DNA of 64,000 nucleotides, taken from assembly GCA_004375895.1 (NCBI GenBank), contig SOJW01000015.1, positions 1-64,000 of the forward strand, written 5' to 3'. The notes beneath the pieces were generated by a model. That model searched no databases, had not been told where the DNA came from, and saw only the letters and a list, made by a program, of their open reading frames with translations. The position numbers and the translations under genes are program-made. This document shows positions 5,072-49,903 of the stretch, piece after piece. The first letter of the stretch is position 1, and each line of letters opens with the position of its first letter. The stretch is from Candidatus Stahliibacteriota bacterium (GTDB lineage Bacteria > Hydrothermota > Tepidihabitantia > B3-TA06).

Positions 5072-5200
5072 TCTATTCGCAGACGGCGCGGAGTCAAGTT
5101 CTTGCTGACTCCGATTGCGATCTCCATGGCTTAATTCGTCAGGTTTCTATTGCACTCGTCATAATCCAGAGGAGACTTAATAAACAAAGAAGGAGGTTTT

Positions 5201-6421
5201 ATGCCTTACGCAACGATAAGAGAAATTTTGTCCGAGGTGGATGCGGAGAATCCTCCTGCACCCGAGCATTTTCCTGATTTTAATCCGACGGATATAGAGG
5301 CCTGGGCATATTTTATACACGTCTATCTCGATTCTTCGCGGTCGGATTTTGGTCGTCCGTCCTTTCTGCCCAAATATACACGTGCAACCGGTGGGTTCCA
5401 ATATGGATTTCTCAGCCAGGAGAATCCCTTCGCACCCCGATATCCCGCAAACTACGATGAAGCGATCAAAGCGACTTACATCAAGAAGATTTTAGATTAC
5501 ATAAAAATACTGACCCGGAAGTGGGGTTGGGTGAGCTTGAAGCTAGAGAGCGTGATGGGTTTTGAAATAAAGGCCGACACTGACGAGGGGTGGTGGAATT
5601 TTTACAGGGCGCTTTACAATCGAGCTATGTCGGCGCGGGACATCGCCTGGCGCAAGATTATGACCTACTGTGCCACTCTGATTGGAAATCAGAATGCAAG
5701 CAATACAAGGATTATCATTCCAGAAATGGCTATCCTTTACTCTCATGTCAAGGCTCAATGGGATGCAGTATTTGGTCAGGTTGCCAACCTTGTGATTAGC
5801 TCTGGCTACAGAACACCTGCGGAGCAAAGGGCATTGCGGGTCGCAAGAAGGAACGTCGAAACGACCCACGCTACAGGAGGAGCGATAGATATTCATCCCG
5901 ACCGTGATAGCATCCTCTTCGCCGGAAGCGAGAAGCGATTCGTCTTCCTGGGTTACCTGGCGTGGCTTTGCAAGGTTATAGGTCACAGCGAGCTGGGCAA
6001 GGAACCTTATACGATAGCGGAAATAACAAGCAATCATGTCCTCCAAGTGAGCTATGCCTGGCTGTTGTACGTGGGAATGGAGGATGAGTATAAAGAGATT
6101 CTCCCAGAGTTTGTACGGCCATACGATGGCGAGCTTCCCCATAACACCAACACAGGAGCGCTCCTGCGGGAGATTCAGGGACCCAATCGGATTGATGAAC
6201 ATTGGAATCGATTTGATGAAGAGAATTTTGACCTTGGTGCCCTAGAGAATGGTGTCGATCGTCTTGATCCTAACGGCGCGGTTTCGGCTTCCTGGATGGA
6301 AGGCCTTTTGAGATTTTTGGAGAACAATCAAGATTTATTGTTGGAGCCAGACCGACAAAGGCTTGCCAGGATTAATATCAATGCTCTCCCCACACACAGG
6401 GCTTTGCCACAGGAATGGTAG
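5201..6421 (+). CDS. M15-like (D,D-/L,D-peptidase fold) metallopeptidase domain protein, no signal peptide; cassette gene 1, locus A
   Basis: SSGYRTPAEQRALRVARRNVETTHATGGAIDIHPDRD resembles the M15 SGYR...HxxGxAxD motif. Strong N-terminal similarity to 48463..49791 (YATIREILSEVDAENPPAPEHFPDFNPTDIEAWAYFIHVYLD). RBS aaggagg. Confidence 0.65.
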   Translation: MPYATIREILSEVDAENPPAPEHFPDFNPTDIEAWAYFIHVYLDSSRSDFGRPSFLPKYTRATGGFQYGFLSQENPFAPRYPANYDEAIKATYIKKILDYIKILTRKWGWVSLKLESVMGFEIKADTDEGWWNFYRALYNRAMSARDIAWRKIMTYCATLIGNQNASNTRIIIPEMAILYSHVKAQWDAVFGQVANLVISSGYRTPAEQRALRVARRNVETTHATGGAIDIHPDRDSILFAGSEKRFVFLGYLAWLCKVIGHSELGKEPYTIAEITSNHVLQVSYAWLLYVGMEDEYKEILPEFVRPYDGELPHNTNTGALLREIQGPNRIDEHWNRFDEENFDLGALENGVDRLDPNGAVSASWMEGLLRFLENNQDLLLEPDRQRLARININALPTHRALPQEW

Positions 6422-6432
6422 AATCAATGGGA

Positions 6433-6460
6433 TTGACACAATAACCCTTTGTCTTATAAT
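6433..6460 (+). promoter_or_regulatory. Sigma70-type promoter TTGACA-N16-TATAAT, predicted leaderless (ATG at 6467)
   Basis: TTGACA 6433-6438, TATAAT 6455-6460, ATG 6 nt later. Confidence 0.7.
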
Positions 6461-6466
6461 ATCTTG

Positions 6467-7342
6467 ATGAAAAGGGCGTGGGTTATTCTTCTTGTGATGT
6501 GGGGGACGATGTGGGCGTTTTCGCTCGAGGAGTTCCTATGGATTTATTTTTGGATTGACTACGATTGCTATTTGCGGAAGGAGGATAGAGAGGCTTATAA
6601 GGCTGCCTATGGGCCCAAGTTCTGGAGTAACGAGAAGATAATCCCTATGTCTGTGCTTACTGAGGAGTATCCTCGTGCCGCGGTCCAGCTTGATGGGCTT
6701 GTGGAGAATACAATGAGAAGCCAAAAGAGCCTTGACTGGGCGCTTGATAACTTGAAACCTTCCTCAGGGCCGGCGGCTTCACTGCCTGATTCAATCCGAA
6801 GGGAGATGCTCTATTATCTTTACCACGATAACTTCTATAGGATCAAGAAACCCTGGTCTTTCGGGGATGAGATACCAACGGATTTCTATTTTAGCGGTGG
6901 AACTGGAACTTCAGATAAAGGTTGGTTTCGTTACGCAGACATAGACTGCGCAGCAATGGAAGAGGCGAAATTGTGGCTTGGTAGCTACTGCACAATTTAT
7001 TGGGCCAGATCCAACGATACCCTTATGGATTCAGCGCGTGCCATGAGATTATTCAACCATGCGATTAAAGAAGATATGCTGGTAAGCCGTCTTTCTAATC
7101 CAGAATGGAGTCCAATCCTAAGTTTTGAACCCTGCGTCTACCATGAGTACTACGAGCTTCCCGCGTATTGCATCGAGATCACGGTTGAGTATGATTGCTG
7201 TGAGGAGTACCCAAACGTCTACCGAAGACAGGATACCATGGTCGTCGTAACCTGCATTAAGGATAACTACGAGTATCTCATCTCACACTCCAAGGCGGAT
7301 GGGGGCATCACCGAATTTTTGCATTACTACTTGACCTTTTAA
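6467..7342 (+). CDS. Secreted hypothetical protein (cassette gene 2, locus A, copy 1)
   Basis: Signal peptide MKRAWVILLVMWGTMWAFS. Paralogous to 7557..8438 and 47535..48395 (LDWALDNLKPSS, FSGGTGTS.KGW, WARSNDTLMDSARAM). The ORF-track start at 6449 lies inside the -10 box, so ATG 6467 is preferred. Confidence 0.7.
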   Translation: MKRAWVILLVMWGTMWAFSLEEFLWIYFWIDYDCYLRKEDREAYKAAYGPKFWSNEKIIPMSVLTEEYPRAAVQLDGLVENTMRSQKSLDWALDNLKPSSGPAASLPDSIRREMLYYLYHDNFYRIKKPWSFGDEIPTDFYFSGGTGTSDKGWFRYADIDCAAMEEAKLWLGSYCTIYWARSNDTLMDSARAMRLFNHAIKEDMLVSRLSNPEWSPILSFEPCVYHEYYELPAYCIEITVEYDCCEEYPNVYRRQDTMVVVTCIKDNYEYLISHSKADGGITEFLHYYLTF

Positions 7343-7360
7343 CTCCTACCTTCCGAATAG

Positions 7361-7501
7361 CAGGGACCCTGGGAGGTTAGAACGGGGTTTGTGAAGTTTC
7401 TGCAGAAGAAGGAGGACCTAACCGACCTTCAGAAGAAGAAAATCTCCAGAATCAACCTCCACCACCTCGATAAGGTTCAGTCTACCTGGCCTTTGCCGTA
7501 G
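7361..7501 (+). pseudogene. Remnant of an M15-like cassette gene 1 (C-terminus only, internally deleted)
   Basis: Reads GFVKFLQKKEDLTDLQKKKISRINLHHLDKVQSTWPLP*, matching the tail of 5201..6421 (GLLRFLENNQDLLLEPDRQRLARININALPTHRALPQEW). Just upstream, cagggacc(c)tgggaggttagaa gives QGPGRLE after removing one base; compare FQGPGRLD in 48463..49791. Confidence 0.72.
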
Positions 7502-7523
7502 GGTGTCAAAATCAAAATTTATC

Positions 7524-7551
7524 TTGACAAATTGAACTTTTATCTTATAAT
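7524..7551 (+). promoter_or_regulatory. Sigma70-type promoter TTGACA-N16-TATAAT, predicted leaderless (ATG at 7557)
   Basis: TTGACA 7524-7529, TATAAT 7546-7551, ATG 5 nt later. Confidence 0.7.
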
Positions 7552-7556
7552 TCCCC

Positions 7557-8438
7557 ATGGGGAGACTTTTGTTTACTGCATTGCTCTTTTTAGGCGTTGT
7601 GTGGGGGTTCTCGCTTGAGGAGTTTTTGTGGATTTTCTACTGGCACGATTATGATTGCTGCTTGTGGGAGGAGGATAGAGAGGCCTATAAGGCTGCTTAT
7701 GCTCCCAAGTACCGGAGTAACGAGAAGATAATCCCCATACCGGTGCTTACTAAGGAGTATCCTCGTGCGGCGGCCCAGCTTGATGGGCTTGTGGAGGATG
7801 CGATGGGAAGACGCAAGAGCCTTGACTGGGCGCTTGATAACTTGAGGCCGTCCTCAGGGCTGGCAGCGTCGGTACCCGATTCCATCCGCAGGGCGATGCT
7901 CTATTATCTTTACCACGATAACTTCTACAAGGTTAAGAAGCCATGGAACTTCGGCAACGAGATGTTTAGTATTTTACACTTCAGCGGAGGTACAGGTACA
8001 TCCGAGCAGGGCTGGGTTCGTTATGCGACCATACCTGTTTGGACAATGGAAGAGGGGAAAGCGTATTTTAGCGGTTATACCGGGATCTCGTGGGCTCGAA
8101 CCAGCGATACAGTGATGGACTCGACACGCGCTATGTGGATGTTCAATAACGCGGTGCAGAAAAACGTATTGATAAGTAGATTGTCTGATCCTGCCTGGTT
8201 TCCGATTTTGAGCATGGAATCCTGTGCCTTCCATGAGCGTTACGAACTTCCAGCATTTTGTATGAAGATTCCTCTTGAATACGATTGTTGCGAGGCATAT
8301 CCTGATGTTTATAGAAAAAACGACACCCTCTTCCTGGCGACTTTTATTACAGACGGCTATGAGTATCTTATCTTTTCTTCCGTTGGATTTTGGGGAAAGG
8401 GATATCCCTGGAATTTCTATTTAAGATTTCGACCTTAG
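7557..8438 (+). CDS. Secreted hypothetical protein (cassette gene 2, locus A, copy 2)
   Basis: Signal peptide MGRLLFTALLFLGVVWGFS. High identity to 6467..7342 over full length. Confidence 0.7.
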   Translation: MGRLLFTALLFLGVVWGFSLEEFLWIFYWHDYDCCLWEEDREAYKAAYAPKYRSNEKIIPIPVLTKEYPRAAAQLDGLVEDAMGRRKSLDWALDNLRPSSGLAASVPDSIRRAMLYYLYHDNFYKVKKPWNFGNEMFSILHFSGGTGTSEQGWVRYATIPVWTMEEGKAYFSGYTGISWARTSDTVMDSTRAMWMFNNAVQKNVLISRLSDPAWFPILSMESCAFHERYELPAFCMKIPLEYDCCEAYPDVYRKNDTLFLATFITDGYEYLIFSSVGFWGKGYPWNFYLRFRP

Positions 8439-8534
8439 CTATTCCTCAATCTTCAACGCGAGCAGCATATCCTCAACCGAGACGCCGGGAAGCTCGAATC
8501 GGTCATCCTGGCGATGGTCTCGGCATTCTTCCTT
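8439..8534 (-). pseudogene. 3' remnant of a lipoate-protein ligase gene with internal deletion
   Basis: Reverse complement ggaagaatgccgagaccatcgccaggatgaccgattcgagctt|cccggcgtctcggttgaggatatgctgctcgcgttgaagattgaggaatag matches two separated parts of lplA (about 47056-47099 and 47373-47427). Confidence 0.85.
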
Positions 8535-43925: not shown

Positions 43926-44372
43926 ATGAGAAGAACAACAAGAGATAGCATCATCCCCATCCTCAAGCTCGGGGAGTTCCTGCTTGTCTCTATCCAGATC
44001 GATCTTCACGACCGGATGGCCGAACAGCTACAGCAAGATATCCTCGAGCGTGTCTCCCAGACCCAGGCGCGGGGCGTACTCATTGATATCTCAGCCCTGG
44101 AGATGGTGGATTCCTTCATAAGTAGAATCCTTGCCGACACCGCACGCATGGCCGCCACCCTTGACGCAGAGATCGTAATCGTTGGCATGCACCCGGCGGT
44201 TGCTATCACGTTAGTTGAGCTTGGGCTTTCTCTTGGCGATGTAAAAACCGCATTAAATCTTGACGAAGGCTATACACTGCTGGAAGAACTACTAAAGGAA
44301 CGAGAGATGGGGGCAAGAACCCGGCAGGAGGAGGAAAGCACAGAGGAGTCCAATGATAGTGATTCCGATTAA
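43926..44372 (+). CDS. RsbS-like STAS anti-sigma antagonist
   Basis: GVLIDISALEMVDSFISRILADTARMAATLDAEIVIVGMHPAVAITLVELG closely resembles RsbS, including the phosphoacceptor region. Confidence 0.88.
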   Translation: MRRTTRDSIIPILKLGEFLLVSIQIDLHDRMAEQLQQDILERVSQTQARGVLIDISALEMVDSFISRILADTARMAATLDAEIVIVGMHPAVAITLVELGLSLGDVKTALNLDEGYTLLEELLKEREMGARTRQEEESTEESNDSDSD

Positions 44373-44745
44373 GGAAGAGGTGGACATCGTAAGGGTGCGA
44401 ACGGCTGTCAGGTCTATGGCGCGAGAGATCGGCTTCGGGCTTGTAGACCAGACTCGTATCAGCACCGCCGTCTCGGAACTGGCACGCAACGCCTTCCTCT
44501 ACGCGGGCGAGGGAGAGGCCCACATAGAGGAACTCACAAATCCTCATAAGGGTATCCGGATCACCTTCATCGATCACGGACCGGGAATCGAGGATATTGA
44601 ACTGGCAATGAAAGATGGTTGGTCATCATCTGGCAACATGGGCAAGGGGCTGCCTGGTTCAAAACGGCTCTCTGACCACATGGAGATTTCCAGCGAACCC
44701 GCTCAAGGCACCACTGTCATCATAGAGAAATGGCTATCCGTATGA
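44353..44745 (+). CDS. RsbT-like serine kinase (anti-sigma regulatory factor)
   Basis: RISTAVSELARNAFLYAG, FIDHGPGIEDIELAM, GKGLPGSKRLSDHMEI. Confidence 0.88.
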   Translation: MIVIPIKEEVDIVRVRTAVRSMAREIGFGLVDQTRISTAVSELARNAFLYAGEGEAHIEELTNPHKGIRITFIDHGPGIEDIELAMKDGWSSSGNMGKGLPGSKRLSDHMEISSEPAQGTTVIIEKWLSV

Positions 44746-45746
44746 AGCAAATCGAGGAGATGCGCATCGAAAAGGAAGAACATATTCTTGAGACACGAGG
44801 AATCATACACCGCTTCGCTGAAAAGCTTGGATTTAAGGATAAACTCCTGGCCCAGATAGACCTCTGCGTTAGCGAACTTGCCACAAACCTCGTGGTTCAC
44901 AAGGCCAAAAACGGCAGGATGAGTTTTCAGGAGCTTAAAGAGAACGATCTGCGTGGAATCGAGATCTTTGTCCAGGACGAGGGTCCTGGCATCAAGAACG
45001 TCACACAGGTACTCCAAGGGGGTTTAAGCACCGCCGGCTCACTGGGTCAAGGTCTGGCCTCTGTGCAACGCATCGCAGATGAGTTTGAGATATACTCCAA
45101 CTCCAACGGCACCCAGGTGCGATTACGGAAGTACCTTCCACCTGGCAAAACCACCGACGAAGCTATCCAAAGAAAAGCGGTTGTGAGTGTTGTGGTTCGC
45201 ACCCATCCGGAATCGACTATCTGCGGGGACGGTCACGTGATCCATCACGACGGTCCCAGAACGCTCCTTGCGGTGATAGACGGGCTTGGACACGGAACCC
45301 AGGCAAGAAAAGCAGCTGCTGTCGCCGAAGCCTACCTGCATGCGAACCACCGCAAGCCCATCCAGCAGATGCCTGCCGAACTTCACAGTGCCCTGCACAG
45401 CACCCGCGGTGCAGTGGCAGGGATAGCACGTATCGACGAAGCTGCCAATAAACTCTCCTTTATAGGGGTGGGCAATATAAGCGCCAGGCTCTGGCTGCCG
45501 GAGGAAGAATCGTGGGCTCGTCTGATCTCAATGAGCGGCACCCTGGGGGTAAGCTTACGCCCACCACGTCTCTTCTTCTACCCCTGGAAAAAGCAAAGCG
45601 TTTTCGTGATGCACTCAGACGGTCTACGGGATCGCTGGGAACTCTCCACCGATGAGATTACACTATCACCCACTGAAATCGCACGCACCCTCATGCGAGA
45701 TAATTGTCGTCGAACCGACGATGCGACTGTGATGGTGGTACGATGA
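44730..45746 (+). CDS. RsbT-like ATPase fused to RsbX/SpoIIE-type PP2C phosphatase
   Basis: CVSELATNLVVHKAKNG, DEGPGI, GQGLASVQRIAD, then CGDGHVIHHDGPRTLLAVIDGLGHGTQARKAA and DATVMVVR. Confidence 0.85.
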   Translation: MAIRMKQIEEMRIEKEEHILETRGIIHRFAEKLGFKDKLLAQIDLCVSELATNLVVHKAKNGRMSFQELKENDLRGIEIFVQDEGPGIKNVTQVLQGGLSTAGSLGQGLASVQRIADEFEIYSNSNGTQVRLRKYLPPGKTTDEAIQRKAVVSVVVRTHPESTICGDGHVIHHDGPRTLLAVIDGLGHGTQARKAAAVAEAYLHANHRKPIQQMPAELHSALHSTRGAVAGIARIDEAANKLSFIGVGNISARLWLPEEESWARLISMSGTLGVSLRPPRLFFYPWKKQSVFVMHSDGLRDRWELSTDEITLSPTEIARTLMRDNCRRTDDATVMVVR

Positions 45747-46132
45747 AAAATCTGGCCTTCTCCCAAGACGGCGTATGCACCATGCATCTTGAGGGAGTTA
45801 CACAACCTCGCGAGATTGAGGATCTGATCGAAGAATACGTCACAAGTGTCGAGCTTCTGCCTTATCACCTCCGCCTGATACTCATAGACATCTCCGAGCT
45901 GGTGCACATGGGTGCACGCTCGAGACAGGTGTTCTCAGAACTCCTGACCCAGGCATCAAAGCATTACGGGGGTAAGGTAGAGTTGGTGATAGTGGGCGGG
46001 TCCCTGAACCTGCGCAGGTTCATTCAGCTTTTTTGCAAGGGAATCGGTCTCCGCGAGCGAAGCCACTTCTTTGAGCACCTCAAGGAAGCCCAAGCCTGGA
46101 TAACCAAACGGCTTTCCGAAGATCCCTCCTAA
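45743..46132 (+). CDS. STAS-like protein, flanking paralog 2
   Basis: ATGA overlap with the upstream gene; LRLILIDISELVHMGARSRQVFSELL...HLKEAQAWITKRL. Confidence 0.65.
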   Translation: MKNLAFSQDGVCTMHLEGVTQPREIEDLIEEYVTSVELLPYHLRLILIDISELVHMGARSRQVFSELLTQASKHYGGKVELVIVGGSLNLRRFIQLFCKGIGLRERSHFFEHLKEAQAWITKRLSEDPS

Positions 46133-46374: not shown

Positions 46375-47427
46375 TTGAAGCTTTTTACCTTCGACACCCT
46401 GCCAGGTCAGGATTCGATGACCGTATTCCATACCATCGCCAGGGAAGGAATCGAGTGCCTGTGCCTTGTCTCGCCGCAGACCCCGATCATCAGCGTGGGT
46501 TACTTCCAGGACGCGGCAGCCGAGATTGATCTCGACTACTGCGCTTCCCACAACCTGCCGGTGATGCGCAGGGAAGTAGGGGGCGGCGCTACATATCTTG
46601 ATTCTAACCAGGTCTTCTACCAGGTCATCCTGCGTCGTGATAACCCCTTGGCTTCGCGTAAGATATCGGAGCTATATCAGACCTTATCCGCACCTGCAAT
46701 CGAGACCTACCGCAAGTTCGGTATTGAAACAAAGTTCCGCCCGGTAAACGACATAGTGACTGTTGAAGGCGAGCGAAAGATCGCTGGCGAGGGTGCGGGA
46801 GACATCGGCCCCTGCGTGGTGTTCGTGGGCGGGATACTTCTGGACTTCGACTACGATACGATGGCCCGGGTATTGAAGGTGCCGGACGAGAAGTTCCGCG
46901 ACAAGATCCACAAGTCGATGCAGGAGCATGTAACCACGATATATCGAGAGACGGGCAAGAAGCCTTCCCGTGCCCAGGTACGGAAGGCGCTGATAGAGAA
47001 GTTCACCCTGCTCCTTGGTTCGCTGGAGCCTGCCGAGTATACACCGGAACTTCAGCGGAAGAATGCCGAGACCATCGCCAGGATGACCGATTCGAGCTTT
47101 CTCTTCAAGCGCACCATGAAGAAACCGGGCCAGGTGAGGATCAGATCGGGTGTGGAGTTTATCATGGGGATGCACAAGGCTCCGGGCGGACTGATAAGGA
47201 CGGCATCAGAGGTGCATGAGAACAGATTGGCGGATGTGATCATCTCCGGCGATTTTACCCTTCTTCCGCTTCAGGGCTTACCTAAGATAGAGGATGGAAT
47301 CAAGGGCGCAGAGAGAACCAAGGGTGAGGTAGGCAACCGCATAGAACGGGTGATCTCGGACGAAAGCCTGCAGCTCCCAGGCATCTCGGTGGAGGATATG
47401 CTGCTTGCGTTGAAGATAGAGAAGTAA
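46375..47427 (+). CDS. lplA: Lipoate-protein ligase A
   Basis: SVGYFQDAAAEIDLDYCASHNLPVMRREVGGGATYLDSNQVFYQVIL; TTG start after aaaggag. Confidence 0.9.
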   Translation: MKLFTFDTLPGQDSMTVFHTIAREGIECLCLVSPQTPIISVGYFQDAAAEIDLDYCASHNLPVMRREVGGGATYLDSNQVFYQVILRRDNPLASRKISELYQTLSAPAIETYRKFGIETKFRPVNDIVTVEGERKIAGEGAGDIGPCVVFVGGILLDFDYDTMARVLKVPDEKFRDKIHKSMQEHVTTIYRETGKKPSRAQVRKALIEKFTLLLGSLEPAEYTPELQRKNAETIARMTDSSFLFKRTMKKPGQVRIRSGVEFIMGMHKAPGGLIRTASEVHENRLADVIISGDFTLLPLQGLPKIEDGIKGAERTKGEVGNRIERVISDESLQLPGISVEDMLLALKIEK

Positions 47428-47460
47428 TGCTCCTTTTGTCCCAAAGGGACGAAAGATCGC
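47428..47460 (-). repeat. GCGATC-hairpin-GGAGCA element, copy e
   Basis: GCGATC TTTCGTCCC TTT GGGACAAAA GGAGCA on the minus strand (one mismatch in stem). Confidence 0.55.
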
Positions 47461-47534
47461 AAGGGGAATCGGAAGATAATTTAAAGTTTGGCCGGTTCCC
47501 TGAATAGTATAAGCGGGGATCGGCCTCGGCGTAT

Positions 47535-48395
47535 TTAAGGCCTAAGGCTCAGGAAATCCGCGACGTTTTCAGGATGAAAACACCCCCCATCCGCCAAGAA
47601 AGCCACCAGATACTCATAACCGCCCTTCACCAGAACAAAGACATAATAGGAATCGCTTACACGCATCTGTCTTTCAGGTTCAAACTTGTAGTCATAGGTC
47701 ACCCTTGCCCTTACGCGGTACGCCGTAGCGCCGTAAAAGGGAGCCGCGCACCGGACTACGCTTGAAGGCTTGCTCCACTTTGGATTATCAAAAAGGCTTA
47801 CGAGTATCCCTTCTCCTACAGCACGGTTGAACGCCTCAATCGCACGGGTGGAGTCCATCACCGTATCCTGGGTCGCAGCCCAAGATACCACCAGCGGCCC
47901 GCCGTATTCAAAACCTCCATCAACCCCGGTAAGACAGGCAACCTGAAGGAAACCTTTGCTAGAAGTACCTGTTCCGTCATAGATAGCCAGATAACGACCA
48001 GTGTACTGATCGATCTTTAAAGGCTTTTCTAAAGACTCCAGTCGATCAACATAGAGATAAAAAATCGCCTTCCTCCGTAAGGAATCGGAAAGCTCCAAAA
48101 GGGAATCCAGTTCAGACCTCAGTGAATCAAGCGCCCAGTCAAGCTCCTTATGCTCGCTCATGCTCTCGGCTACAAGCTTGTCGTATTCCAACGTGGCATG
48201 AGGATGTTCAGCTAAAAAGGGCATCAAAACTAACGGCCTGGAGGAAATTATATCCCAATCAAGCCTACCCGCCCAACCCAAATACATCAGATATTCTTTC
48301 CAATCGGCAATCTCTACAATCCACCAGTACTTCTCATCCGTAAGTTCACTCACACCTACTGTAATCAATAGAAAAACAAGGAAAAATCTCTTCAT
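47535..48395 (-). CDS. Secreted hypothetical protein (cassette gene 2, locus B)
   Basis: Signal peptide MKRFFLVFLLITVGVSE; shared EHPHATLEYDKLV, LDWALDSLRSE, DGTGTSSKGFL, SWAATQDTVMDSTRAIEAFNRAV with 6467 and 7557 genes. Confidence 0.7.
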   Translation of the reverse strand: MKRFFLVFLLITVGVSELTDEKYWWIVEIADWKEYLMYLGWAGRLDWDIISSRPLVLMPFLAEHPHATLEYDKLVAESMSEHKELDWALDSLRSELDSLLELSDSLRRKAIFYLYVDRLESLEKPLKIDQYTGRYLAIYDGTGTSSKGFLQVACLTGVDGGFEYGGPLVVSWAATQDTVMDSTRAIEAFNRAVGEGILVSLFDNPKWSKPSSVVRCAAPFYGATAYRVRARVTYDYKFEPERQMRVSDSYYVFVLVKGGYEYLVAFLADGGCFHPENVADFLSLRP

Positions 48396-48462
48396 AACTC
48401 GTTAAGTATAGAAGCTTTCTACCAGCCTGTCAAGGGTAGAACGTGGAAAGAAGAACCAGTAA

Positions 48463-49791
48463 CTAGTCAATCTGGCCAATCCGAGCATCTTGATTAGTAA
48501 GACGGTCGACGTGGTGTTGACGAATCAATCTTCCGAAATCCCATCCACGGTTGTTAAGTGCCTCGTTTATGAAGTCTGCCAACCACTGAGCACTGATGCC
48601 TCCTGAGTAATCAGGTTGGTTGGAAATCGCTCCGAAATTCAGAGTTGCATATTGAGTAGGATTGAAAACATCCCACAAGTGATCCAATCTCCCAGGTCCC
48701 TGGAACTCACCTCGGGTTCGAGAAGTAGGAACATCGGTTCCTGCATCGGGATCATTTGCATCCACAGGATATGGCCGAGTAACCGAAGGAAGAACATCCT
48801 GCCTTACGTCCCTCGAACCCACAGCGTGAAGGAGCCAGCCAAAACTTATATGAGCGGTTCCAGGCTCACAAAGGGTTTTAGGCATTCGGGGCACCCTCGT
48901 TTCGTTCGGCTGGCCTCTATTCAAGACCACTATCTCTCTGAAATAGGGACTATTCTGTGCAGCCCTTCTAAATAGCCAGCAAAGATAGCCGATGGAGATG
49001 CGCTGACCATAGTTGCGCTCTCGAAATGGAAACGCTTGATAGAAATCACGCGGGGGCAGGACATCAATAGCTGCACCTGCTACGTGAGCGCTTTGTCTTG
49101 CCCTTGATACTCGTCTCTGCCAGTTTTGGGTTCGATACCCGGACTGGATTTCGATGTTACCGCTTCCAATATCTCCAAAAACCTGTTGCCACTCCCGGTT
49201 AGCCTCAAGGTAAAGCAAGGTGATATCAGGAAGGATAAACGCTACGTCTTCGCCATCCTTCTGATCCCCACTGGCAACCACATTAGGACCTCCGGGTCTC
49301 TCCCATGGGTCTGCATGAGGATAGAGTCGTCTTGCGGAGTAGGACATCACCTTTTCCCAGGCCACGTCACGGGCATCCTTGGCTCGCTGAAAACAGGCCT
49401 CATAGATCGCCTCGGTGTCTATAGAGAAGCCCAGGACCTTAGTCACCCCTAAGATTATGACAGGCTTGATGCGCCAAACCCCCATGCAATAAGAAACGTA
49501 GTCCAGTATTTTCCTTAATTCCTCCAGATGCGATAGCCTTCCAAGGAGAGGGAGATCATCCACTCTTCCTGACCCTTCGTTGTATCGGGGAAGAAAGGCC
49601 GGCCATTCCATCTCGCGCCTTTTATTCCATGAGACAAACCAACCAACTCCTTGTGAAAAATCCAGATAGACGTGCATAAAATAGGCCCAGGCCTTGAGGT
49701 CTTCGGGATCAAAGTCAGGAAATTGATCCGGGGAACACGGATTTCCCGCATCCACCTGCGAGATGATCTGATCTATGCTAGCGTAAGCCAT
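48463..49791 (-). CDS. M15-like metallopeptidase domain protein, no signal peptide (cassette gene 1, locus B)
   Basis: IQSGYRTQNWQRRVSRARQSAHVAGAAIDVLPPRD and GTAHISFGWLL; N-terminus paralogous to 5201..6421. RBS aggagga. Confidence 0.65.
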   Translation of the reverse strand: MAYASIDQIISQVDAGNPCSPDQFPDFDPEDLKAWAYFMHVYLDFSQGVGWFVSWNKRREMEWPAFLPRYNEGSGRVDDLPLLGRLSHLEELRKILDYVSYCMGVWRIKPVIILGVTKVLGFSIDTEAIYEACFQRAKDARDVAWEKVMSYSARRLYPHADPWERPGGPNVVASGDQKDGEDVAFILPDITLLYLEANREWQQVFGDIGSGNIEIQSGYRTQNWQRRVSRARQSAHVAGAAIDVLPPRDFYQAFPFRERNYGQRISIGYLCWLFRRAAQNSPYFREIVVLNRGQPNETRVPRMPKTLCEPGTAHISFGWLLHAVGSRDVRQDVLPSVTRPYPVDANDPDAGTDVPTSRTRGEFQGPGRLDHLWDVFNPTQYATLNFGAISNQPDYSGGISAQWLADFINEALNNRGWDFGRLIRQHHVDRLTNQDARIGQID

Positions 49792-49828
49792 TATTTCTCC
49801 TCCTGACTTTAATTATTGTCCTGATGGT

Positions 49829-49903
49829 GACGAGTGCAATAGAAACCTGACGAATTAAGCCATGGAGATCGCAATCTGAGGCTAAAGATGAACAAACACA
49901 AGA
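49829..49903. repeat. Duplicated leader shared with 5040-5160 (including a vestige of the DUF3467 RBS/start)
   Basis: 48-nt exact inverted match (49829-49876 vs 5113-5160) followed by GAGGCTAAAGATGAAC, also found at the DUF3467 gene start (5053-5068 region, minus strand). Confidence 0.85.

Follow-up and report, generated by a model that had tools for sequence, protein, structure and literature searches.

A candidate toxin/immunity cassette of an M15-like peptidase and a secreted partner in the WOR-3 bacterium Candidatus Stahliibacteriota

Two cassettes and a partly decayed third unit in a 64 kb stretch

At two places in positions 1 to 64,000 of contig SOJW01000015.1 of a Candidatus Stahliibacteriota bacterium (assembly GCA_004375895.1; the whole 64,000-nucleotide stretch is called the window here), a gene for a signal-less M15-like peptidase is followed by one for a secreted protein of about 290 amino acids (aa), and it is this two-gene cassette that is considered here. 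The window is contig C54 of its own genome (G000; 2.2 Mb in 75 contigs), which is compared below with relatives (G001 etc.) retrieved by protein search and labelled Candidatus Stahlbacteria or candidate division WOR-3. A preliminary description of the window had reported a pair (A), an inverted second pair (B) and a third unit in tandem with A, consisting of a decayed peptidase C-terminus and an intact secreted paralogue; all the open reading frame (ORF) coordinates hold, and the features are as follows (nt, nucleotides).

5112..5161, +: element upstream of peptidase A, conserved and recurring before peptidase B; core CGTCAGGTTTCTATTGCACTCGTCA at 5137-5161
5201..6421, +: peptidase A, signal-less, M15-like, 406 aa; H223 and D230 kept, possibly inactive because Q282 replaces the third zinc-ligand His
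6433..6460, +: sigma-70 type consensus promoter of A1, TTGACA-16-TATAAT, ending 6 nt 5' of the start codon
6467..7342, +: A1, a secreted protein of 291 aa and putative immunity protein of the periplasm
7361..7501, +: 3' fragment left from a second peptidase, with a beta-type tail (the type of the intact G001 peptidase)
7524..7551, +: consensus promoter of A2, TTGACA-16-TATAAT
7557..8438, +: A2, an orphan secreted protein of 293 aa and putative immunity protein; the only partner of the G004 peptidase matches it at 86-90% identity
8439..8533, +: stretch matching the 3'-end sequence of a lipoate-ligase-like gene (46375-47427)
47535..48395, -: B, a secreted protein of 286 aa and putative immunity protein of the periplasm
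48405..48433, -: promoter of secreted protein B, TTGACA-17-TATACT, 11/12 consensus
48463..49791, -: peptidase B, signal-less, M15-like, 442 aa, with all three predicted zinc ligands
49828..49876, -: counterpart of the A element upstream of peptidase B, with 49 nt identical

Peptidases A and B are homologous end to end (BLASTP E=2e-58, 30-37% identity), and A1, A2 and B form one secreted family, with 62% identity between A1 and A2 and 33% between A1 and B. The remnant, within 7343-7556, reads '...GFVKFLQKKEDLTDLQKKKISRINLHHLDKVQSTWPLP*' and is nearly letter-identical to the C-terminus of the intact G001 peptidase, which bears out its description as a decayed peptidase end. No further cassette copies were found in G000 at E<=0.01, and the window gave no tRNA or Rfam matches. 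PADLOC detected no defence family.

A divergent M15 peptidase and its secreted partner

The M15-like motif recognized in the preliminary description is supported for copy B, which matches Pfam Peptidase_M15_3 above the cut-off (E=4.9e-7). Copy A, which scores below it (E=0.0068), fits less well: by alignment, the third ligand His ('HVSY/HISF'), found in five of the six intact peptidases, is replaced by Gln-282, and copy A may be inactive or may use a neighbouring residue. The SGYR/SSYR..H..G..ID motif is kept in all six, and one relative's peptidase matches VanY (E=8e-8). We regard the peptidase as a divergent M15 enzyme with a predicted zinc site, the site being assigned by alignment because the AlphaFold2 models are of low confidence. 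A Foldseek search with the peptidase model gave no meaningful fold match, and searching PDB sequences turned up just a VanXY-type entry (E 0.06-0.9) and a single ribosomal protein, apparently by chance; a PHROG endolysin match of copy B (phrog_894, E=2e-4) is weak and lies in the catalytic motif. Neither Pfam nor NCBIfam revealed a ColM or pesticin domain, the catalytic match being to M15, and Pfam showed no known marker of type VI secretion systems (T6SS) in the cassette proteins. Neither Rhs, CdiA nor any other domain known for delivery was found in the peptidase, and its N-terminal domain, sought on other toxins as a possible shared delivery domain, was seen only in these peptidases.

By a simple Kyte-Doolittle heuristic applied to N-termini (not SignalP), a hydrophobic N-terminal signal is absent from the six peptidases and present on every secreted protein, as had been proposed. 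The secreted family has no Pfam family and no convincing relative in NCBIfam or PDB (a PDB sequence search with the partner gave nothing); Foldseek with its low-confidence model returned PsbP/DcrB/Mog1-type folds (E 2e-4 to 1e-2, TM ~0.24 by query), which are a lead only. Orphan-type and B-type partners are under purifying constraint (dN/dS 0.26-0.29).

Strict adjacency, and partners that outlast their peptidases

Among 147 genomes of the phylum (WOR-3/Stahlbacteria) scanned for both genes, the two were confined to the family of the window: G000, G001, G003 and G004 (same genus), and G005. Decayed remnants of both genes are present in G006 and a decayed secreted gene in G007; neither gene was found in G002. 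A scan of GTDB by sequence seeds gave only two genomes, both already in the set. The idea that the cassette itself came from a prophage or phage was rejected, as no homologue was found in IMG/VR viral contigs or in 50,697 phage records. Co-occurrence of the two families elsewhere had been set beforehand as a check, and adjacency proved to be strict in every genome with an intact peptidase: a partner adjoins every peptidase gene in G000, G001, G003, G004 and G005, the order being peptidase then partner, reversed in G005 and, among fragments, in G006.

The order peptidase, secreted gene, peptidase 3' fragment, secreted gene is found in three species (G000 5201-8438; G001 L031:8553-11849; G003 L033:11673-7691). 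Between G000 and G001 the tails are swapped, the intact peptidase being of the alpha type and the fragment of the beta type in G000, and the reverse in G001; the G003 fragment is another version of the coiled-coil tail of that genome's own intact peptidase. Orphan partners with displaced toxin ends, as seen in these three tandems, are a feature of polymorphic toxins. Broken peptidases with an open secreted gene also occur at G003:C80 (frameshift; the partner has an altered end) and G004:C90 (internal deletion and stop; the partner runs off the contig). In all, an intact partner lies beside six of six intact peptidases and an open partner is kept in five of seven units with a dead peptidase; survival of the partner beyond its peptidase is what the predicted immunity function would lead one to expect. 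Without its signal, the orphan A2 of G000 shares 90% identity with the one partner that the G004 peptidase has, and the C-terminal half of this peptidase is 81% identical to that of copy A, suggesting that A2 may fit a toxin of the G004 type.

Exchange of cassette parts between species

The genes flanking the cassettes in G000 and G001 are mostly 94-98% identical in protein, and the site between the lipoate-ligase-like and winged-helix-like genes holds a B cassette in one of these genomes and an A tandem in the other. Within the peptidase gene, codons 1-100 show 97-99% nucleotide identity among G000, G001 and G004, codons 101-150 about 64% between G000 and the others, and codons 151-175 are identical; for the catalytic half the value between G000 and G001 is down to 52-70%. 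Third positions of G000 and G004 differ at 3/100 of codons 1-100, against ~36% assumed from flanking genes (P ~1e-15), and at 4% in the 3' half of A2 (P ~7e-20), compared with 41% in the lipoate-ligase-like gene. So few differences relative to the flanks point to recent exchange of cassette parts between species.

Conservation of the N-terminal part and variability of the C-terminal toxin part are as in polymorphic toxins. So is an adjacent, co-diversifying partner gene: over 15 non-independent pairs with partly shared ancestry, the identity of the C-terminal half of the peptidase tracks that of the partner with r=0.93, the value for the front being r=0.72.

Separate promoters, and an element shared with phage-type genes

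The A1 and A2 promoters are perfect TTGACA-16-TATAAT sequences that end 5-6 nt before the start codon, and that of B matches at 11/12 positions. Across species, promoters of at least 11/12 consensus precede 10 of 12 secreted genes, and none of at least 10/12 precedes any of six peptidase genes. We infer that the partner is constitutive and leaderless and that the toxin is under different control, as in colicin operons.

What precedes the peptidase genes is a 25-bp element, CGTCAGGTTTCTATTGCACTCGTCA; each of the eight peptidase loci inspected has it, ~36-48 nt upstream of the start codon. Allowing up to 3 mismatches, it has 26 sites in G000, 32 in G001, 22 in G003 and 19 in G004, with fewer in G002, G005, G006 and G007; it was never found in G008 and G010, and a reversed control pattern gave 0 sites. 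Nearly all of the nine best sites in G000 (0-1 mismatch) precede a gene. One copy heads a Mu-like operon (major head protein, head-tail adaptor, sheath, baseplate hub); another heads a spanin-like gene, followed by the gene of a large protein in which an L,D-transpeptidase-like H..GC motif was read by eye and PG_binding matches weakly, and then by genes for three secreted proteins, with a portal gene nearby. Further copies head genes for signal-less HExxE-motif proteins accompanied by secreted lipoproteins. At G006:C29 (L127:4681-14027) there are three head-to-tail units of element, signal-less gene and secreted gene, each of ~2.8 kb, and a fourth element that precedes endolysin-like and terminase genes.

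The Mu-like contractile phage-type genes occupy at least three loci in G000 (C36, L130; C33, L132; C21, L111), keep their places across species and mostly have low dN/dS (0.02 and 0.11 for the major head protein, 0.06-0.11 for the terminase). In view of these constant surroundings and low values the cluster looks inherited rather than recently acquired as a prophage; vertical inheritance and purifying selection of phage-type structural genes are also features of gene transfer agents, and we consider the cluster a candidate domesticated phage or gene transfer agent. A holin match lies beside the portal gene in G003, and G002 has a capsid cluster without the cassette.

Arrays in which signal-less HExxE proteins alternate with secreted leucine-rich or 'YPWQGEDSI' lipoproteins, many of them behind the 25-bp element, were seen at G000:C7:23000-47000 (L101, L102), G001:C22 and C30 (L120, L121), G003:C100 (L124) and G004:C43 (L126), and look like further effector/immunity families. 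The element also enters into a dispersed repeat on G000 contigs C5, C6, C13, C50, C52 and C72 (L109, L110, L113, L116, L118, L119), in which variants such as CGTCAGGTTTACATCGCACTCGTCA precede tandem units resembling GGTCAAAAG, and no gene lies behind. A role as an integron-like cassette boundary was considered and rejected for now: in the window there is no copy after the secreted gene, and the pair lacks an element on one side.

Neighbouring genes

The stretch at 8439..8533 matches, at query 5530-5624, sequence near the lipoate-ligase-like gene in G001, G002, G003 and G007. As the cassettes of relatives adjoin that gene, the stretch appears to be a trace of cassette movement. At the 3' side of the same gene in the window (47421-47466) is an element of 36-46 nt that recurs on several unrelated contigs of G001, G003 and G004. 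Genes for STAS-domain-like and anti-sigma-factor/kinase-like regulators (43926-46132) adjoin the B locus and are conserved with it in several relatives. Elsewhere, the cassette at G003:C80, G004:C90 and G005:C32 has as its neighbour a gene for a patatin-like phospholipase (PF01734; E=1e-18 in G003). A dCTP-deaminase-like gene (PF22769, E=6e-5 for the G001 copy, which was tested) lies in the cassette site by the CCA-transferase gene at G001:C6 (L064:3583-4811), and a homologue of it, recognized by its start sequence, lies near an element copy at G000:C52 (L118:2018-3010).

A toxin/immunity reading and its rivals

The toxin/periplasmic-immunity cassette suggested in the preliminary description gains support from co-occurrence, co-diversification, orphan partners behind decayed peptidases and separate promoters. 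We consider it probable (at about 0.62) that the cassette encodes an M15-type peptidoglycan toxin and a periplasmic immunity protein, with toxicity, protection and periplasmic inhibition as predicted properties. The peptidase, lacking a Sec signal, would cut peptidoglycan as a toxin of the M15 zinc-peptidase type, and the immunity protein, exported to the periplasm, would block its cognate peptidase there. The conserved front (residues 1-100) would serve in delivery or uptake and also provide homology for recombination, so that the catalytic half could be exchanged, or could diversify, jointly with the partner. An incoming toxin half and its partner would then push the old tail and its immunity gene downstream, where the displaced immunity gene would be retained because, we propose, it has its own constitutive promoter; the toxin would be made from the separate, probably regulated, upstream element. 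Since this element is common to the toxin, to the Mu-like cluster (capsid, sheath, portal and lysis genes) and to other pairs of signal-less and secreted proteins, a colicin-like release seems the likeliest route: a subpopulation inducing the phage-like cluster would lyse, and non-kin with unmatched immunity would be killed. Even granting the toxin/immunity reading, release through lysis tied to the phage-type cluster is a tentative idea, somewhat short of an even chance. The wider picture, in which a domesticated Mu-like cluster would command a whole set of signal-less toxins (M15 peptidases, HExxE proteins and PG-binding enzymes resembling L,D-transpeptidases), each with a constitutive exported immunity protein, and would couple particle release to the killing of non-kin, is more doubtful still.

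Several observations weigh against the toxin/immunity reading and its proposed mode of release. The window's copy A is without one zinc ligand, and AlphaFold2 pLDDT values for two models (37.6, the mean for the peptidase, and 45.9) are too low for conclusions on fold or binding. The correlation of catalytic half and partner partly reflects shared ancestry, and tail type is not strictly linked to partner body, since an A2-like partner is found behind tails of the alpha and of the beta type. Promoters close to consensus are nothing unusual in the window, those of at least 11/12 preceding 11 of 48 background ORFs, and those of the partners therefore look to be of an ordinary housekeeping type. 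About one-quarter to one-third of the element sites in G000 belong to the dispersed repeat with no gene behind; the element may thus be a repeat that includes a promoter rather than a promoter proper, and co-regulation is something that we infer from it. No known trafficking domain, secretion system or export route for the peptidase was found: the T6SS marker VipB (PF05943) was absent from six genomes, with a positive E. coli control, and Phage_sheath_1 (PF04984) had no Pfam match in ten. By these standard markers T6SS or contractile delivery was set aside, and the sole injection-type machinery found is the capsid-bearing phage cluster. That cluster has a divergent sheath gene (phrog_907), so the PF04984 result is compatible with contractile tails.

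The chief rival is a self-lysis module, in which the M15 protein would act as an accessory endolysin by way of a holin and the secreted protein would be a periplasmic brake or helper that times lysis, with no antagonism between cells. This would accord with the sharing of the element by the peptidases, the capsid operon and the spanin-like/endolysin operon, with the holin match beside the G003 portal gene and with the PHROG endolysin match of copy B. A lysis brake, however, offers no obvious reason for orphan retention, for recombination together with the partner or for divergence faster than that of neighbouring genes; the phage-type loci already have separate L,D-transpeptidase-like/PG-binding endolysin genes, and G002 keeps its capsid cluster without any cassette, so that we think self-lysis unlikely. 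Ordinary wall remodelling would involve a peptidase exported through an unrecognized route together with a secreted cofactor or inhibitor, drift and gene conversion accounting for their diversity; this seems more improbable again. M15 enzymes are commonly housekeeping carboxypeptidases or endopeptidases, and the sequences are mostly under purifying selection, but a housekeeping pair would hardly be absent from G002 and from all scanned genomes outside the family, and the tandem orphan partners, repeated peptidase decay and interspecies exchange of parts contrast with the behaviour of the flanking genes. Least probable is a selfish addiction (toxin-antitoxin) pair with a periplasmic antitoxin, maintained through the death of cells from which the pair is lost: without a signal, a wall enzyme would fail to get into the periplasm of its own cell, and weapons rather than addiction modules typically have a large conserved front domain and orphan immunity genes, even if the cassette does have two genes, of which the toxin decays the more readily, and can move between sites, and even if a HicB-like gene (read by eye) lies behind one element copy in G001 (L122).

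Relation to known systems

Bacteriocins of the colicin M/pesticin type combine a peptidoglycan-interfering toxin with a linked immunity protein acting in the periplasm, and are polymorphic, recombining and often found near mobile or tailocin regions (PMC5821083). The logic of the proposed cassette function is the same, but those toxins are lipid II phosphatases or muramidases rather than M15-like, there is no Pfam sequence match, the immunity protein is unrelated and the hosts differ, the cassette coming from uncultured WOR-3 bacteria. M15-like domains occur among WHIX T6SS effectors (PMC12135965), and T6SS peptidoglycan effector-immunity pairs likewise join a peptidoglycan-targeting domain to a neighbouring gene for a protein with a signal peptide; VipB, however, was absent from the six genomes searched, and Pfam gave no T6SS marker in the cassette proteins. 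In architecture and exchange the cassette also resembles the Rhs and contact-dependent inhibition (CDI) systems, with a conserved front, a variable C-terminal half, a partner directly downstream and orphan immunity genes, which in the case of Serratia Rhs1 are retained after toxin exchange (PMC10539506); the cassette toxin differs in being only ~400-500 aa long and in having no Rhs, CdiA or known delivery domain.

To M15-type phage endolysins the likeness is the weak phrog_894 match in the catalytic motif, set against the lack of a phage homologue in the collections searched, a long extra N-terminal domain and the paired secreted gene. The phage-type cluster, with structural and lysis genes at three or more loci, conserved positions and mostly low dN/dS, resembles gene transfer agents and domesticated prophages; it is known here from its genes, and its only link to the cassette is the shared upstream element. 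Immunity-like partners are not, to our knowledge, a feature of gene transfer agents. By the tests made, the cassette lies outside the T6SS, ColM/pesticin and Rhs groups, and would be a variant of toxin/immunity systems.

If this is correct, the cassette would represent a toxin/immunity family in which the toxin is of the M15 type and the immunity proteins form a family that Pfam does not yet contain. Its hosts belong to WOR-3, a phylum with hardly any cultured members; toxins and secretion systems go unmentioned in one genome survey of it from 2025. The orphan partners and swapped tails would provide a clear case of toxin-half displacement outside known secretion systems, and the shared element suggests that the other arrays of signal-less and secreted proteins belong with the cassette to a single regulated arsenal linked with a domesticated phage.

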